A model generated the notes under the pieces. That model made no database searches. It was not told where the DNA came from and saw nothing but the letters and a program-made list of their open reading frames with translations. Made by a program: the position numbers and the translations under genes. 55,560 nucleotides of DNA from a virus, in the IMG/VR virus record IMGVR_UViG_3300033146_001559, positions 1 to 55,560 of that record; one strand, given 5' to 3'. Below, piece after piece: positions 18,567-33,525 of the stretch (positions are counted from its first letter, which is position 1; the number at the start of each line of letters is the position of its first letter).

Positions 18567-18652
18567 AGTATAGTAGCATAATTGGCAATGTAATAGATTA
18601 TTAATCTGTGAGATTTATCTCTATGTAGGTTCGAACCATACCTATACTGCCA
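18567..18652 (+). tRNA. tRNA with long variable arm, anticodon loop reads TTATTAA
   Basis: A full cloverleaf with encoded CCA. The acceptor AGTATAG pairs fully with CTATACT; D stem GCAT/ATGT with GG in the loop; anticodon stem ATAGA/TCTGT; a 15-base variable arm containing hairpin GAGA/TCTC; T stem GTAGG/CATAC with one mismatch and loop TTCGAAC. The seven-base loop implies anticodon ATT (Asn AAU), but a long variable arm is typical of Leu, Ser or Tyr tRNAs, so the identity is uncertain. Confidence 0.7.
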
Positions 18653-18661
18653 TTTTCAAAC

Positions 18662-18752
18662 TGCGGGGATCACATTAGTGGTTCATGTGACCAGTCTCAT
18701 AAGCTGTCGTCCTTTATCGGGCATGTGGGTTCGATTCCCTCCACCGCAACCA
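18662..18752 (+). tRNA. tRNA-like gene, anticodon CAT (Met or Ile)
   Basis: Acceptor TGCGGGG/CACCGCA (one mismatch), D stem CACA/TGTG with TTAGTGGTTCA loop, anticodon loop CTCATAA, T arm GTGGG-TTCGATT-CCCTC (one mismatch), and encoded ACCA end. The variable region is unusually long (about 17 bases) and can form GTCC/GGGC. The anticodon stem has one C-T mismatch. A CAT anticodon suggests Met or lysidine-type Ile, which is odd with a long variable arm. Confidence 0.65.
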
Positions 18753-18755
18753 TAT

Positions 18756-18809
18756 GTATCGGGGGTTTACCCCCGCCAGTTCTAGGTTCAATTCCTAGTC
18801 GATGCACCA
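18756..18809 (+). ncRNA. tRNA-like minihelix without D and anticodon arms
   Basis: Fifty-four bases. GTATCGG (18756-18762) pairs with TCGATGC (18799-18805), followed by discriminator A and CCA. A perfect T arm CTAGG-TTCAATT-CCTAG lies at 18782-18798. Where the D and anticodon arms should be there is only a short G/C hairpin (Gs up to 18765, TTTA, Cs from 18770). It starts four bases after the preceding tRNA. It is either a deleted tRNA or a deliberate acceptor/T-arm mimic. Confidence 0.5.
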
Positions 18810-18813
18810 CCAC

Positions 18814-20834: not shown

Positions 20835-20866
20835 AAAACCCCGTGACTGATCTATCACGGGGTTTT
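20835..20866. terminator. Strong hairpin terminator after the interrupted tRNA
   Basis: Perfect 12-base stem (20835-20846 with 20855-20866), eight-base loop, G/C-rich base and A/T run at the ends. Read leftward it begins at the tRNA CCA end and closes with a T run. Confidence 0.8.
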
Positions 20867-20971
20867 GGTGGGAGTGTCGGGGTTCGAACCCGAAACCTAG
20901 CAATTATTTTAGATTCACTTGTTAGTGTGAACCCCAAAGAGTTGCCCGCTCTACCGTTGAGCTACACTTCC
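20866..20971 (-). tRNA. tRNA gene with about 31 extra bases in the anticodon loop
   Basis: Minus strand. Acceptor GGAAGTG/CACTCCC (one A-C mismatch), D arm GCTC-AACGGTA-GAGC, variable loop AGGTT, perfect T arm TCGGG-TTCGAAC-CCCGA, encoded ACCA. The anticodon stem GGCAA/TTGCT pairs fully but encloses 38 bases, not seven. The excess contains a seven-pair hairpin (GGTTCAC/GTGAATC with one G-T). Removing 31 bases could leave CTCATAA (anticodon CAT, Met) or CTCTTAA (CTT, Lys). Everything outside the loop looks like an ordinary functional tRNA. Confidence 0.7.
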
Positions 20972-20977
20972 ATAATT

Positions 20978-21547
20978 TTACTCGGATTCCAATGCATATC
21001 GAAATTCCTTTACACCCTGTCCGAGTTGATAATCGGGGGTCTTCAATGAGTCTACCAAACGAATAAGTGCTCCAACATGAACGGAGTATTCATCACCATC
21101 CCGTGCTACGTGCTCAGTCGTGTATGACTTATCGAAGTCAGTCTGTCTTGTAGTTACATAATCACCTTCAACCGTAGCTTCAGATTTAGCGTGCTTAATC
21201 GATGATAATCGCAGTAGATCTTCTGCCATCATCAGGAGAGCACTCTCATCCTCATGGAATGCCTCATCCATATTGGTAGAGTCGAAGCCGACCTTAGTGG
21301 TGGCTTTAAAACCATCCACACTGATTGTTCCTTGAGATTCATTGAAATTGATATCTTCAAATGAAACCTGAGTTCCACCATCATCACCGAGGATACCCCC
21401 AGTAGATTGGTATTGTCGGAGATCATCATTCAGTGTCAGGGCAACACGCTCAATCAATCCCTCGATGGTATTGGCGGTCAGGATTTTATTCTCCCGCACG
21501 CCAATACCCTCAAGGACAACACCAATCATCTTATCAAATTTACTCAT
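20978..21547 (-). CDS. Hypothetical protein
   Basis: 189 residues, not recognised. It starts MSKFDKMIGVVLEGI, like other unassigned late genes here; the middle is acidic with short beta segments (VSFEDINF, GTISVDGFKAT), the end helical. ATAATTA is five bases before the ATG, so it is probably made late and may be virion-associated. It sits directly upstream of the interrupted tRNA. Confidence 0.7.
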   Translation of the reverse strand: MSKFDKMIGVVLEGIGVRENKILTANTIEGLIERVALTLNDDLRQYQSTGGILGDDGGTQVSFEDINFNESQGTISVDGFKATTKVGFDSTNMDEAFHEDESALLMMAEDLLRLSSIKHAKSEATVEGDYVTTRQTDFDKSYTTEHVARDGDEYSVHVGALIRLVDSLKTPDYQLGQGVKEFRYALESE

Positions 21548-21890: not shown

Positions 21891-22979
21891 CTATAATCCC
21901 CGACGGTAAACTAGGGAGACTCCTCGATCCAAGATATTTTTTGATGCATTACAATCAGCATGGTCAGTGTGATTGCACTTCGTGCATCGAAAAACGTCTT
22001 GAGTTTGTCGATTCATCCTATCGGTATGACCACATGATCTACACATTTGGGACGTATAGGCTGGGTTTACTGATGTAAATCGAACACGGTTCTCTTCACA
22101 ATTTCGTTCCAACCTGTCAAGCCAATATGCATAGTTCCATGAACCAATAGACTTTCGTAAAGACTTCGATAGCTTTCGCTTCTTCTTAGTCTTAAAATTC
22201 ATATTCTTCAACCTTTCAACTACAATCCGTTGTAGGTTTGGGTTCTTATCAAAAATTTCTTTAGCAGTAGTGTTAATGTAATGACGAAGGTAATTTCTCA
22301 ATCGTTTCTGCCTCTTGGAGCCGTGCCGACACCCATTAATTTTATTAATAATGGATTCTATTTCATTACCATAAAACTCTGCATCAGAAGTGACCGCCAG
22401 TGTTTTGATTCCAGTATCAATGCCGATCACTTTACCTTCTTCTTTCTTCAAGCCTGTATCGATTTCAAACACAAACTGCACATAGTCTTTCGTGATGATA
22501 TATGAGTTAAGTCGTTTTCCTTTAGATTCCCATTTGTTAAATTGTTTGTGTTTTTTAATCGGAAGCAGAAGTTTTATTTTGTTACCAATGGAACCAAGCT
22601 TTAGAAAGCAATCAAAGCTACTTTCGGATTCTTGAAGATCGGCAATGGTTGAACTACAATACATCCGATTACCTCTATGTAGGGGTTTTGATATATTCTT
22701 TGGTTTGTGTTTCCACCTCACCCTCACTGCGAGAATCATATCCAGAGCTTCCCTCGCGGCAACTTTTCTCAGCCGTGCCGACATCCAAGTATCGTCTTTT
22801 GTTATATCAACAATGGGCTTGAGTAATTTAGCTTTGGGTGGTAATTCTTTTAACTCCCAGAAATAATCAATGAATAGATTCACCACATTTCCATATTCGG
22901 ACAGCACTTCAGCCAACTCAGATTTCTTCTTCTGGGTTGTGAATTTTAATGTGCATTTTGACGCCCGAACGAACTTCAT
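21891..22979 (-). CDS. tnpB: TnpB, RNA-guided RuvC nuclease
   Basis: 362 residues. RuvC residues are intact: Asp188 in VIGIDTGIKT, Glu255 in RIVVERL, Asp342 in HADCNASKN. A zinc ribbon uses Cys313/316 (CRSC) and Cys332/335 (CTKC). TnpB proteins cut DNA next to a target motif under control of an RNA made from the 3' end of the gene; the hairpin after the stop (near 21865) would end that RNA. The C terminus (VSLVYRRGL) is shorter than in most relatives. Unlike a typical insertion sequence gene it has the phage late box ATAATTA five bases before the ATG. Confidence 0.92.
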   Translation of the reverse strand: MKFVRASKCTLKFTTQKKKSELAEVLSEYGNVVNLFIDYFWELKELPPKAKLLKPIVDITKDDTWMSARLRKVAAREALDMILAVRVRWKHKPKNISKPLHRGNRMYCSSTIADLQESESSFDCFLKLGSIGNKIKLLLPIKKHKQFNKWESKGKRLNSYIITKDYVQFVFEIDTGLKKEEGKVIGIDTGIKTLAVTSDAEFYGNEIESIINKINGCRHGSKRQKRLRNYLRHYINTTAKEIFDKNPNLQRIVVERLKNMNFKTKKKRKLSKSLRKSIGSWNYAYWLDRLERNCEENRVRFTSVNPAYTSQMCRSCGHTDRMNRQTQDVFRCTKCNHTDHADCNASKNILDRGVSLVYRRGL

Positions 22980-27420: not shown

Positions 27421-30400
27421 CTATGTAATTTCGCATGCACCACCTGAACACGAGGCACCTGCCATTGTGTCAGCATCTACGTGGACTGCGGATTCTTCGT
27501 ATGCCTTTGACCAATCAACATCAACATATTCACGTTTCAGATCACAGAAGATCTTCCAGTTAGTCACATCCTTCAGACAGTATGTCATACGTTTCACATC
27601 GCCTTCAAAATATCGATCGGCGAACTGAAGTGCTCGGCGGATCCAGTCTTGTTTGAGGTCATATTGTGATGAGGTGTCGGATAGAGCATCATCTGCATCA
27701 TCCAGTTTTTGTTCGAGCTTGGCGATCTTGGTAGATAATTCATTTAGCTCTGGTGAGTATGACGCCGTGTATTCGATCACCTCATCGACATTATTCATAG
27801 TCATCTTATCACTAATGATATCTTTAATGGTCTTATACTGAATATTCGCCTGTGATAGCTCTTCAAGGAGCGTGTCATACTTTTCCTGTGCGACATCCAC
27901 TTCACCGTTTAATTGCTCAATACCGAGCGCATGGCTACATGCAGACCATAAATTATGGTCGAACGCTCGGAGACCTGCTGTAATGAGTCCAGATGCAAAT
28001 ACCGTTGCGTCACCATATTCCTTGACCATCTCTGCTGGAGTATAAACGGTTGAGAATGGTGATTGTGGGTAATCCTTATCACCCGATGAAGGTAGCATGG
28101 AGACTCCCGTGAAATTATCTTGGTTAGTCCACAGGTAATCGAATACCTCGTCCCATTCATCTTCCTTGACGGAAATCGTATTGGACACATTGTGTCGAAG
28201 ATATGGCTTATTACTTAGTTCTGGGCGGGTTCCGTGCTCTACCCAGTTCTGTTGGGTTAGTTTTACGTTTTCTAGTAGTTCAATTGCACCCAACTGGTTC
28301 TTAACAATAGCGCCTTTTGGCACCTCGCATACAAACGAGATAACATTATCCGTATCATTCGCCGACCACACACTCTTTTCGATAGCAGATGGATTAAACA
28401 TCCCAAAATATTGAGCTGGAAACTCAAGGGAGTTACATTGTATTCTCCTAACGTATTTTCTGGAGTGGTGAGGATGCACCCCCGAGGAGGTTCCAAGTAG
28501 ACATGACGAACTACCTTCTGGCTTCACACACGTCGTTCTAGCTGAACGACTTACACCAATTAAATCGGCTACTAGCGCGTTAGTTTCCTTAACAATCTCC
28601 GCGCCTTTGCGTTGAATTTCTGGATCCAGAGTGATAGCAGGATTATCCATAATCCCCGTAATACTAACCCCGAGTAGTGCCTCTTTATCGGTTAGTTCTT
28701 TTGTTGCTGATGCGATATATTTGAAATCAGTATACCCCGCTTGTAGTGTTCCAATGATTGCCGCTTCACGACAGCATTTATAGAACTTCTCGGCAGTGTC
28801 CGTGTATTTACCGTTGATTGTGCTGAGGTTACACATCTGGAACCCTTGGCGGCCATCTGGGAGGACGGGTCTGAATGAGATCTCACAGTTATGAACAATA
28901 ACCCCATTACAACTGAATGAGCTAGATTCGGGAACCGTGCAATCATACACTTCCTCCTCACCTACATATCGAACCTCCTTCACACCAGCCATTCGGCCAT
29001 TTGATAGTTGAACTATTGTTGAGTCATTGATATCTCCGATATTCACCCAGCTATCATCAAACCGTTGAATTCTGTGATCCGCCGTTCCAATCATCGGGTC
29101 ATAATCGAACTGGTGTTTATCATCAGTCGGGTCATGTATTAACTTATCAAAAGTTTGAACTACCGTTTCTTCTGTCAGCCCGCCAGCCAATTGCTTAACT
29201 TTGAGTCGTGTATCATTAAAATCATCAAGAACTAATTCATACACTTTCTTTGTTCCAGTTGACCAGAAACCACATTCGGTTGATTCGTATAGTGCTCCAT
29301 ATATTTCGGTTTTAAATTGGACACCGACTAAGTCGGAAACCAACTTATCGCCCATATCTGTCTGAATTTTGTTCCGACCAGAAACACAACAAGGGTTGAC
29401 CCCACTCTCATTATCATCCATAAAAACGAATGCGGGTTCCCCATACTCACGGACTCGTTCTTTAACCATATCAAATTCCTCTTTAGTGGAATCCCCACGG
29501 ATGAACACGGCGGAGTTATTAGAGCGTGCCCTCTGTGGGTTGTCGTTGAACCAATTTCCTGTTTTAGCATTCATAACTTCTTCATCATCAATGGAGAAGA
29601 TAATAATCAATGCGGAGTTGTGTGATACTGATTCGAATTTAGAGTCCTTTTGTCTCACCGTGAAGGCGTGAACGTCGGCGACCGATATATCATATGTTCG
29701 ACCATCTTCGATTCTCTCTGTTTTACCAATCCGAGAAAGCTTGTAATCCGAAGGTAATAGGTTGTCGCCTACCTCAACACTAGCACCACTACGGTCTGTT
29801 ACCAATGAGAATCGGGACGTCTCTGCTTCGATGATCGAGGTAGACATCCATCCCATATTTTCAACTAAATGATCATACACGAGCCACTTGTGGTTTGGTG
29901 TTGAGACCTGATAGCCGTATTTTGACGTGATTTTAACTAACGACTGCACGCCGTTATCCATTACCTCAGTCACTGGATATTCCTTACCAGCATACAACAC
30001 GGTGTCATCCAAAGTTAGTTCACTGATCTGTTTAAATGACCCATTTCCGAGCTTAACTTCGGATTCATGAAAAAGACAACGACGAACGCCACCACTCAAA
30101 ACGGCGTCTGAAAGATGGCAGATAATATCAAGTATATTGATCGGTTTCAGTTTATTACTAAACTCCCCCTCGGTGAAATCCTCATCCTTCAATCGTGCTT
30201 CGATGACCTCTCGGATCAACTCAACTGACCTATTTAGTCCGTTAGATCCTGGAGCCTTAAACCCACCACTGATAAGGGCACCCGCTGGTCGGATATCAGA
30301 ATAATCGAATTCTACGACTTTTCCACCCCATCCACCAAACCCGTCAATACTGACGGCTCCGAGGTATGATGCCATCAATACATTGATGCAATCTGCCCAT

Positions 30401-30849
30401 CCCTCGATGGAGTCCTCGGGCTTGAATACTACAGTGTCCCCCGATACGGGACTAATATCACCGATCTGCTTGACATGGTGCTTCTGGATGCTGGCACCTG
30501 CACCACATCCACACAAAAGCAGGTGCAGAAGTTCACCAAACACATCATCCCTGCATACATTACCAAATGCACAGTTAAACATCTTTGCATTCCCTCGTTC
30601 AATTGGTGCTCCCCCGAATTGGAGTGCCCTCTGTGAACCGAGGATCCGCTTACCGAATAACCCATCCTTCGCTTCTGCGATGATTTCTGCTAATTTGGGG
30701 GTCTCTCCGATTTGTTTTGCATACTTTCGTTCGTGCATATCAAATACACGATCTACTGTCTCACCCCACGTCTCTCTGCGTTTTTTGTCTTCATTGAATA
30801 GGGCATAGCGACTATACCGCACATATTCAGACATTGCTTTAATACTCAT
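27421..30849 (-). CDS. nrdJ: Class II (adenosylcobalamin-dependent) ribonucleotide reductase with two inteins
   Basis: 1142 residues before splicing and 821 after. It reduces ribonucleotides using a B12-derived radical. Class II RTPR-type motifs: MFNCAFGNV, LLLCGCGAGASIQKHHV, DSIEGWADC, DIRPAGALISGG, an ANNSAVF-like SNNSAVF, NPC-CEI once the second intein is removed, CNLSTINGKY, and a C-terminal CSGGAC cysteine pair. Two inteins interrupt active-site motifs (residues 258-411 and 488-654). TTAATTA lies four bases before the ATG. The phage would depend on host or imported cobalamin. A long noncoding or degenerate stretch lies upstream. Confidence 0.92.
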   Translation of the reverse strand: MSIKAMSEYVRYSRYALFNEDKKRRETWGETVDRVFDMHERKYAKQIGETPKLAEIIAEAKDGLFGKRILGSQRALQFGGAPIERGNAKMFNCAFGNVCRDDVFGELLHLLLCGCGAGASIQKHHVKQIGDISPVSGDTVVFKPEDSIEGWADCINVLMASYLGAVSIDGFGGWGGKVVEFDYSDIRPAGALISGGFKAPGSNGLNRSVELIREVIEARLKDEDFTEGEFSNKLKPINILDIICHLSDAVLSGGVRRCLFHESEVKLGNGSFKQISELTLDDTVLYAGKEYPVTEVMDNGVQSLVKITSKYGYQVSTPNHKWLVYDHLVENMGWMSTSIIEAETSRFSLVTDRSGASVEVGDNLLPSDYKLSRIGKTERIEDGRTYDISVADVHAFTVRQKDSKFESVSHNSALIIIFSIDDEEVMNAKTGNWFNDNPQRARSNNSAVFIRGDSTKEEFDMVKERVREYGEPAFVFMDDNESGVNPCCVSGRNKIQTDMGDKLVSDLVGVQFKTEIYGALYESTECGFWSTGTKKVYELVLDDFNDTRLKVKQLAGGLTEETVVQTFDKLIHDPTDDKHQFDYDPMIGTADHRIQRFDDSWVNIGDINDSTIVQLSNGRMAGVKEVRYVGEEEVYDCTVPESSSFSCNGVIVHNCEISFRPVLPDGRQGFQMCNLSTINGKYTDTAEKFYKCCREAAIIGTLQAGYTDFKYIASATKELTDKEALLGVSITGIMDNPAITLDPEIQRKGAEIVKETNALVADLIGVSRSARTTCVKPEGSSSCLLGTSSGVHPHHSRKYVRRIQCNSLEFPAQYFGMFNPSAIEKSVWSANDTDNVISFVCEVPKGAIVKNQLGAIELLENVKLTQQNWVEHGTRPELSNKPYLRHNVSNTISVKEDEWDEVFDYLWTNQDNFTGVSMLPSSGDKDYPQSPFSTVYTPAEMVKEYGDATVFASGLITAGLRAFDHNLWSACSHALGIEQLNGEVDVAQEKYDTLLEELSQANIQYKTIKDIISDKMTMNNVDEVIEYTASYSPELNELSTKIAKLEQKLDDADDALSDTSSQYDLKQDWIRRALQFADRYFEGDVKRMTYCLKDVTNWKIFCDLKREYVDVDWSKAYEESAVHVDADTMAGASCSGGACEIT
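28888..29388 (-). other. Mini-intein 2 in NrdJ (NPC/CEI site)
   Basis: Residues 488-654 (167 aa). It starts CVSGRNKI, has a TADHR block B-like motif (589-593) and ends VIVHN before Cys655. The flanks rejoin as NPC+CEI, the conserved class II active-site motif. No homing endonuclease domain fits in the length. Confidence 0.85.
29617..30078 (-). other. Mini-intein 1 in NrdJ (GGVRR/SA site)
   Basis: Residues 258-411 (154 aa). It starts CLFHESEV, has block B STPNHKW (316-322) and ends ESVSHN before Ser412. The flanks rejoin as GGVRR+SALI, the conserved extein sequence. The splice nucleophile downstream is Ser here and Cys for the other intein, so the two are different types. No endonuclease domain. 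Confidence 0.85.
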
Positions 30850-31738: not shown

Positions 31739-32948
31739 TCAAGCTAAATTAATTAACTTCGGGATCACTGCAAATCCCTCTATCCCATCAGCATTGAATG
31801 CATTTGGGAGTGCTTTTCTCATAATATTGTAAGCTCCATTGACGTCAGCATTGATTTTTCCAAATAATTTGGAGTTGAACATACCACGGGTAGCTCTGTA
31901 TCCTTTATATTCTTCATGTTTCTCAATTTTTTTCCAAGTCGAGGAATGAACATTTAGATGTGTAGGATTCCTCCTGCAACCTAACTTCAATCCCAACCAG
32001 CTTACATTTATATGTTAACATTGAAATAAAAGTATCAAATGGAATCTGCACAAAATTCTGATTAGTTCTTTTTCCCAAATTTATCTCTTGTTTCCATCCT
32101 TTGTTCTTGCCAATAATAAGCAAGGAAACATCGTTGGAATCTAAATGATTAATAATTTTGGCACTAATCTTGTGCATATAATCTTTGATTTTTCTATTTC
32201 TTTTGTCTTGTAATTTCTGTAATTTTCTACTCCATTTTTTGTTATTTTTTGTTTCTAATTCAGCCTGAATTGTTGACTTCTTTTTGTTGAAATATTGATT
32301 TATTGACTTCAGTGGGTTGCCGTTGAAGATGAGGGGCGAAGCCCCGTCTTCAAATACCACCGTGGCGAGGTTGGATAATCCAATATCAATTGATGCCGTA
32401 TTTGCCTCTGAGCGAAGCTCTTCCTCCACAACCTCATACACTATCTCAACCACGAAGTGGTTGGCTCTAGGTATGATTCTGGCTTGTTTTACATCACCCC
32501 ATTCTTCAATATTCGTTGGTATTTTTAAAGTTGTCCCAGACAAAGAAATCACTCCATTTTTACCAAACTCCTTTTTAGAAATTGCCCCTTTTTCAAAAAT
32601 AACAACCTGTTGTCCCTTTTCCGTATCCTTGTATTTAGGGATTTTGGGTGGTCCCGTGAAGCCAACTTTCGATTTATTGTATGATTTTATGGATGCAAAG
32701 AATGCACGGTAATTCTGGTCAACCAGTTTGATGACTTGGTTGCAGATTTTCTTCTTCAGACCACATTTTTCCCAAATTTCTTCCTTTTTGATTTCTTTGT
32801 ATAGTGAAGAAAATCCAATATATTTTCCATTTTCGAAGAAATACTGACGAGCAATATATAAACAGGAATTATATAAGTTTTTGCTTTCAAAGCACAACTC
32901 ATAAAGTTCTGGTGTTGGTTTTAAAATATGTTGCTCTACTAATTTCAT
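31739..32948 (-). pseudogene. tnpB: IS607-type TnpB, frameshifted in an A7 run
   Basis: The first frame (MKLVEQHILKPTPELYELC...) includes the RuvC Asp region (ASIDIGLSNLATV), SLLIIGKNKGWKQE and EESYTSKCSFLDLEK, then stops. A second frame continues IEKHEEYKGYRATRGMF and INADVNGAYNIMRKALPN to the stop at 31739. The switch point is a run of seven A residues (31927-31933 as T on the plus strand); one A fewer gives the normal EKIEKHEE sequence. The gene is either dead or read by slippage on the A run. The zinc ribbon has Cys near residue 335; the second Cys pair is not obvious. Confidence 0.8.
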
Positions 32949-32949
32949 A

Positions 32950-33525
32950 TTATTCGTTTAAAAATTTTTCAATGTGTTCTTTTCTTTTTGCCTTTCTTTT
33001 CCCATACAACCTTGCGGAAAATGAATAAATGATTGAGATTAGATCTTGCATTAAATCCTGCTTATCATCATCGGTGAAGTTGACTACGTCAATTGAGATG
33101 TTGTTTTTGTTTAATAATGTTTCAATATAATTAAACCCAAATCTCGTTAAACGATCTTTATTTTCAACTACAATTACATCATAATCACTTCGATCTAAGA
33201 TTTTCTGTAATGTTTTTCTGGTATCATTCATACCAGAACCAACCTCCTTGAATGATGCAATTACTTTATACCCCTTCGTTGATGCATATTGCTCAAGAAA
33301 AAGCTGTTGATCTTTCAGTGATTCTTTCCTATTATTGTTCGAAACTCTGGCATATATGATAGCTCTTTTAACCTCGGATCTATTTTCTTCATCAACTTTG
33401 ACAAAAATTGAACCACTTGGTGAGGTGAAGGCATTTTCGATTTTCCCTTCCTTGAACCACTTCCATGCAGTTCTATAAACAATGGAATTGTTCTTCGCAT
33501 ACTGACTCAACTTGATGTTCATCAT
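32950..33525 (-). CDS. tnpA: IS607 TnpA serine recombinase
   Basis: 191 residues. An N-terminal MerR-like helix-turn-helix (LSQYAKNNSIVYRTAWKWFKEGKI) precedes the catalytic domain RAIIYARVSNNNRKESL, with Ser in RVS about residue 62, then LDRSDYDVIVVENKDRLTRFGF and a C-terminal basic helix. Length and order are those of IS607 transposases. It starts two bases after an open ATG pair near an ATAATTA sequence. The gene is intact. Confidence 0.92.
   Translation of the reverse strand: MMNIKLSQYAKNNSIVYRTAWKWFKEGKIENAFTSPSGSIFVKVDEENRSEVKRAIIYARVSNNNRKESLKDQQLFLEQYASTKGYKVIASFKEVGSGMNDTRKTLQKILDRSDYDVIVVENKDRLTRFGFNYIETLLNKNNISIDVVNFTDDDKQDLMQDLISIIYSFSARLYGKRKAKRKEHIEKFLNE

Follow-up and report, generated by a model that had tools for sequence, protein, structure and literature searches.

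A tRNA gene with a hairpin insert in its anticodon loop on a T4-like virus contig, and interrupted tRNA genes in other phages

A tRNA gene on the minus strand of a 55,560-base virus record (the whole of which is referred to here as the window) spans positions 20866-20971 and carries a 31-nt insert in its anticodon loop. Judging from comparison with other phages, we rate it as fairly probable that this gene encodes a spliced, working tRNA with a short hairpin intron. The divergent window tRNA lacks a close relative, and the comparative argument is therefore borrowed from those phages. What is new here is a hairpin-only insert in a small T4-like contig, phage tRNA introns as such being already known.

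Structure and setting of the interrupted gene

The covariance model RF00005 matches 20869-20971 on the minus strand over its full length (50.7 bits, E = 5.6e-8, against a gathering cut-off of 29) and places the insert in the anticodon loop. With the encoded CCA at 20868-20866, this match shows that a preliminary description of the DNA had the coordinates right. ARAGORN, run without introns, did not call the gene. The fold contains the acceptor, D, anticodon and T stems and a five-base variable loop which, together with the CCA, had been described as normal; an A-C mismatch at acceptor pair 3-70 (A3-C70), which makes for a weaker acceptor stem, had been overlooked. The anticodon stem is GGCAA/UUGCU, including one G-U pair. 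The anticodon loop is indeed 38 nt long with a hairpin of its own, made up of 8 bp capped by an 8-nt loop, with a UUU/AAA helix below, and the stability of the region (z = -3.8 to -4.1) was equalled by none of 200 shuffles. An alternative class II fold, which the preliminary description had named as something that would count against it, was not given by the covariance model, and a misread class II tRNA is rejected. A group I or group II intron is likewise rejected; at 31 nt the insert is, as had been pointed out, far too short to be self-splicing, and no Rfam intron family matched at gathering thresholds or with E values up to 1, nor did any other Rfam element account for it. No second copy of the insert, repeated or mobile, was found within the window.

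If the insert is taken to lie between positions 36 and 37, the 5′ exon of 35 nt (20937..20971, minus strand) holds the 5′ strand of the acceptor stem, the D arm and the 5′ strand of the anticodon stem, and contributes C32 U33 C34 U35 U36 to the loop. The insert itself, UGGGGUUCACACUAACAAGUGAAUCUAAAAU, with its 8-bp hairpin, occupies 20906..20936 (minus strand). The 3′ exon (20866..20905, minus strand) consists of A37 A38, UUGCU, the variable loop AGGUU, the T arm, the 3′ strand of the acceptor stem, A73 and CCA. Under site 34/35 the insert edges move by at most 2 nt (20938-20908). Removal of the 31 nt restores, in silico, the 75-nt cloverleaf that had been predicted, with a 7-nt loop, a 5-bp stem, U33 and A37 A38; when the middle region was shuffled 20,000 times, removal of one block rarely gave a canonical anticodon arm (p = 0.0035). 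A canonical arm after insert removal is also one mark of the Lak-type phage introns treated below.

The anticodon that would be restored depends on the site, being AAU at 33/34, CAU at 34/35 and CUU at 35/36 and 36/37. A cut after position 36 would give the loop CUCUUAA (Lys-CUU) and a cut after 34 the loop CUCAUAA (Met/Ile2). The isotype profile of the tRNA body is low throughout (His 8.1, Lys 7.5, CAU 6.3), and neither the profile nor the nearest neighbors separate Lys from CAU. On sequence grounds we prefer site 36/37, and with it Lys-CUU, because the insert then starts with U and ends with AAU before A37 A38, as in phage tRNAs whose identity is fixed by their bodies. Since the isotype is poorly determined, the gene may also be a decaying pseudogene, hit in the anticodon loop by a small insertion and on its way to being lost. 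The low isotype score and the A3-C70 mismatch are in keeping with such decay, as are adjacent tRNA-like stretches at 18660-18811, which appear degenerate; the remaining stems are intact and the CCA is retained, which speaks against it. The preliminary description had left the choice between a processing step and a dead tRNA. The comparison with other phages favors processing, by analogy, and we consider decay unlikely, at somewhat under one chance in four.

The record encodes a T4-type portal, head protease, sheath stabilizer and terminase. The isolates nearest to its terminase, at about 30% identity, are phages of Sinorhizobium, Agrobacterium, Pelagibacter and cyanobacteria, and the best identity in IMG/VR was 33% in single-sequence and alignment searches. 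No close relative of the tRNA was found in IMG/VR or INPHARED, and no syntenic tRNA was found by searches with the exact tRNA pattern, the large terminase subunit TerL (as single sequence or alignment) or the neighboring open reading frame. A 189-aa reading frame (20978..21547, minus strand), with no family match and no relative, ends 7 nt upstream of the tRNA and is probably co-transcribed with it. Directly after the CCA lies a terminator-like perfect 12-bp inverted repeat with an 8-nt loop and a T-rich tail (20835..20866, minus strand), which a consensus terminator scan did not pick out. Among the reading frames scanned in this 55-kb fragment there was no RNA ligase or splicing enzyme.

Other tRNA-like and mobile elements were observed in the window. 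On the plus strand, 18567-18652 scores 45.9 bits as a tRNA and resembles class II, having G73 and a variable region of 15 nt; its anticodon is AUU, and an Asn anticodon with A34 is unusual for a bacterial virus. It is followed at 18660-18752 (plus strand) by a tRNA-like stretch whose variable region is 17 nt long and which has a CAU loop and CCA; this stretch falls under tRNA thresholds and weakly matches tRNA-Sec. Next, at 18755-18808 (plus strand), comes a mini-tRNA made of an acceptor stem, one GC-rich hairpin, a T arm and CCA, with the anticodon arm absent (fold z = -2.8), similar to the mini-helix inserts that interrupt tRNAs of other phages. The minus strand carries an IS607-like pair of serine recombinase and TnpB (31923-33525), a second TnpB-like gene (21891-22979) and a gene for a 1142-aa protein (27421-30849) with a match to an intein-splicing domain (E = 2.5e-8).

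Interrupted tRNA genes in other viruses

Across the whole of IMG/VR, a pattern scan for tRNA genes whose anticodon loop is normal except for 20-42 additional nt returned 31 stretches as its complete listing; 22 of the 31 have at least four anticodon-stem pairs, and about 19 of these are distinct viral tRNAs besides that of the window, with inserts of 21-42 nt and mostly one hairpin insert. The equivalent scan at the D-loop position, used as a control, gave six matches and no real insert, the matches being ordinary tRNAs with a stray motif or tandem or nested tRNAs. Inserts that sit in the anticodon loop and not in the D loop make random insertion into dying tRNA genes unlikely, and this weighs against decay. 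Across phages the hairpin inserts share their architecture and not their sequence. A signature in which the anticodon is followed at once by U, a hairpin and AAY, and then by A37 A38, is seen in seven of 20 inserts (0.29 expected in shuffles, p = 5e-5), a count that includes the window only if site 36/37 is chosen. The other bearers are Gly-GCC (L033, L038, L150, L399) and Thr-UGU (L130, L133) tRNAs, and it is the Gly and Thr identities of their bodies that place the insert at 36/37. Other sites occur, for example 34/35 in a Val-UAC tRNA (L132).

Several further stretches stand beside this set. Short hairpin-like inserts were seen in tRNA anticodon loops of a Cryomorphaceae MAG (L167) and a Saccharibacteria MAG (L231), contigs that could be phage DNA in bacterial bins. 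In L083 (+7342) and L276 (+3977) the anticodon loop of one tRNA gene contains a second, complete gene, for tRNA-Ile, and L032, L049, L054 and L108 share a recurrent insert type of about 39-44 nt that ends near GTTCCTA.

The bodies of the interrupted tRNAs retain the isotype of the restored anticodon. When isotype was predicted from the body minus the anticodon loop (10-fold accuracy 0.65), the prediction equaled an excision-restored anticodon in 16 of 18 interrupted tRNAs, against 5.8 expected by anticodon permutation (p = 5e-6). The interrupted tRNAs also supply isotypes that their phages otherwise lack. Contig L145 corresponds to Agrobacterium phage Atu_ph07, which is in culture and whose authors reported Asn and Thr tRNAs to be missing (PMC6102473); its interrupted tRNAs are Thr-UGU (335108-335213), with a hairpin, and Asn-GUU (323905-324023) and Lys-UUU, with tRNA-like mini-helix inserts, and the two missing isotypes match two of these exactly. 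Another phage, of 183 kb, has 51 detected tRNAs and lacks Val alone, the isotype of its interrupted tRNA, and a 533-kb phage without Cys, His and Lys has an interrupted tRNA for Lys. Pooled, six of 12 interrupted tRNAs fill such a gap (1.95 expected, p = 0.0025), and in four phages (G019, G008, G009, G010) the interrupted isotype is redundant. Both the retained isotypes and the filled gaps count against decay. They also bear on another explanation, in which the insert is retained and the extended anticodon arm serves as a decoy for anticodon nucleases or as a non-decoding regulatory tRNA. Host anticodon nucleases are known to attack tRNAs, and phages respond with ligases and substitute tRNAs (PMC7824862); a decoy, however, needs neither a restored anticodon that matches its body nor one that completes a tRNA set, and we regard a retained insert as improbable.

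Possible splicing route and relation to known systems

T4-type RNA ligases usually accompany the hairpin inserts: of the 13 phages that bear such inserts and measure at least 80 kb, 11 encode one, versus three of 14 similar-sized controls (p = 0.0015), where the controls are few, were checked for inserts locally and leave out L008 and L096 as insert-bearing. RtcB is absent from all 19 hairpin-insert records and is rejected as the joining enzyme. The archaeal splicing endonuclease domain tRNA_int_endo (PF01974) was found in none of 49 insert-bearing and control phage records; an enzyme of this family may still come from the host.

This last result also concerns the alternative of an archaeal-type bulge-helix-bulge (BHB) intron in an archaeal virus, cut by the host EndA. 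Archaeal BHB introns are, like the window insert, short and placed in the anticodon loop, most often at 37/38, and in GTDB genomes the same pattern matches mostly archaea. One 145-kb virus contig (L128), probably a virus of archaea, has a tRNA-Thr with a canonical BHB intron at 37/38. Unlike these, the window insert has no BHB motif, which consists of a 4-bp helix between two 3-nt bulges where exon and intron meet. Only two of four central-helix pairs form at 37/38, and none of the cut positions tried (33-40) gave a canonical BHB intron, which is rejected. At least three central pairs with flanking helices occur in 43 of 93 archaeal matches compared with two of 22 in the phage set, and the window TerL and portal are nearest to those of phages of bacteria (Sinorhizobium, Pelagibacter, cyanobacteria and enterobacteria). 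We therefore give a BHB intron very little credence.

With no BHB in the window, no splicing endonuclease, RtcB absent and ligases frequent, the simplest model is cutting by a nuclease and sealing by a phage ligase. Sequence and folding predict a transcript that folds as a tRNA with its anticodon arm lengthened by the hairpin. A putative endonuclease would cut at both edges of the hairpin within the anticodon loop and free about 31 nt, while the exon halves would stay joined through the other three arms (acceptor, D and T). Sealing of the exons by an RNA ligase, in the simplest case a phage enzyme of the T4 Rnl1 or Rnl2 type, would then yield a 75-nt tRNA, Lys-CUU if cut after 36 or Met/Ile2 if cut after 34. 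T4 Pnkp/Rnl1 repair offers a model for the joining step, and Rnl1/Rnl2-type ligases are common in insert-bearing phages; that repair rejoins a cut without removing RNA, and we infer its tie to splicing. The broader proposal is that phages have a tRNA splicing of their own in which a candidate endonuclease recognizes short hairpin or mini-tRNA inserts and T4-type ligases connect the exons; short introns that are not self-splicing would then exist in bacteria and be productively spliced there. We rate this proposal as equally likely to be right or wrong.

Short inserts had been considered foreign to phages in the preliminary description. This view is outdated, the first phage tRNA introns having been reported in 2019 from Lak megaphages and termed ‘enigmatic’; both intron-bearing and intron-free versions of Lak tRNA sequences exist, and one of the introns may itself be a tRNA (PMC6784885; PMC8346664). 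Like the window insert, Lak introns are short and lie in tRNA genes of bacterial viruses, with no mechanism described. The Lak example is a Thr tRNA with a tRNA-like intron in 540-kb, code-15 Prevotella phages, whereas the window insert is simply a 31-nt hairpin, on a T4-like contig unrelated to those phages. A 2026 survey by tRNAscan-SE describes the same phenomenon in bulk, with intronic sequences in tRNAs of 262 alternative-code jumbo phages; in its accessible part, it ties the introns to alternative codes and tRNA-in-tRNA introns and does not give classes, splice sites or a mechanism (PMC13037316). Bacterial group I tRNA introns, as in cyanobacterial tRNA-Leu (UAA), share the anticodon-loop site and the bacterial-type tRNA with the window insert and differ from it in being self-splicing and in having several times its length. 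A 2014 review places every phage group I intron known at the time in a protein gene (PMC3984707). In the literature searched, largely outside subscription journals, we found no splicing mechanism for phage tRNA introns.

The usual teaching is that bacteria lack protein-spliced tRNA introns. If phages do carry many interrupted tRNAs and need them for a complete tRNA set, infected bacteria would splice tRNAs by an undescribed route. Such splicing would probably be coupled to RNA ligases hitherto explained only as repairing anticodon-nuclease damage. Phage tRNA repertoires would also be under-annotated, with interrupted tRNAs missed, labeled as pseudogenes or assigned the wrong anticodon. Interrupted tRNA genes also occur in phages that are in culture (Atu_ph07, GAP32, CBB, Serratia BF), which puts the question within experimental reach.

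Other insert classes in phage tRNAs

A second class consists of inserts of about 40-50 nt at other sites of the anticodon arm, frequently just behind position 28 or 29, in which a hairpin is followed by (A)CAGCAA (L005, L021, L023, L034, L043, L051, L055, L056, L081, L082, L087, L097, L098, L101 and L111); it has the look of a coherent intron family, one that Rfam does not list. One insert of this class is conserved in cultured Rak2-like jumbo phages, namely Serratia BF, Erwinia SNUABM phages, Cronobacter GAP32, Pectobacterium CBB, Xanthomonas XbC2 and Vibrio D479, where the interrupted gene is annotated as tRNA-Lys, tRNA-Phe or a pseudogene. The halves of the anticodon stem covary across this insert (CG..TGTCG, GG..TGCCC, CG..GCTCG, GG..TGGCC), and such conservation across genera, although in a class different from that of the window, also argues against decay.

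In other tRNA genes the anticodon loop holds a mini-helix of acceptor plus T arm (L036 +448, L063 -2796, L093 +7555, L123 +4399, and Atu_ph07 323905-324023, the Asn gene, and 68159-68280). These inserts are possibly released by normal tRNA end processing, for which RNase P and a 3′-processing nuclease come to mind as candidates, purely as an idea. Homing endonuclease genes adjoin interrupted tRNAs (L358 5326-5934, L492 293-334; Atu_ph07, Erwinia phage SNUABM_50), and homing endonucleases may help the inserts to spread.
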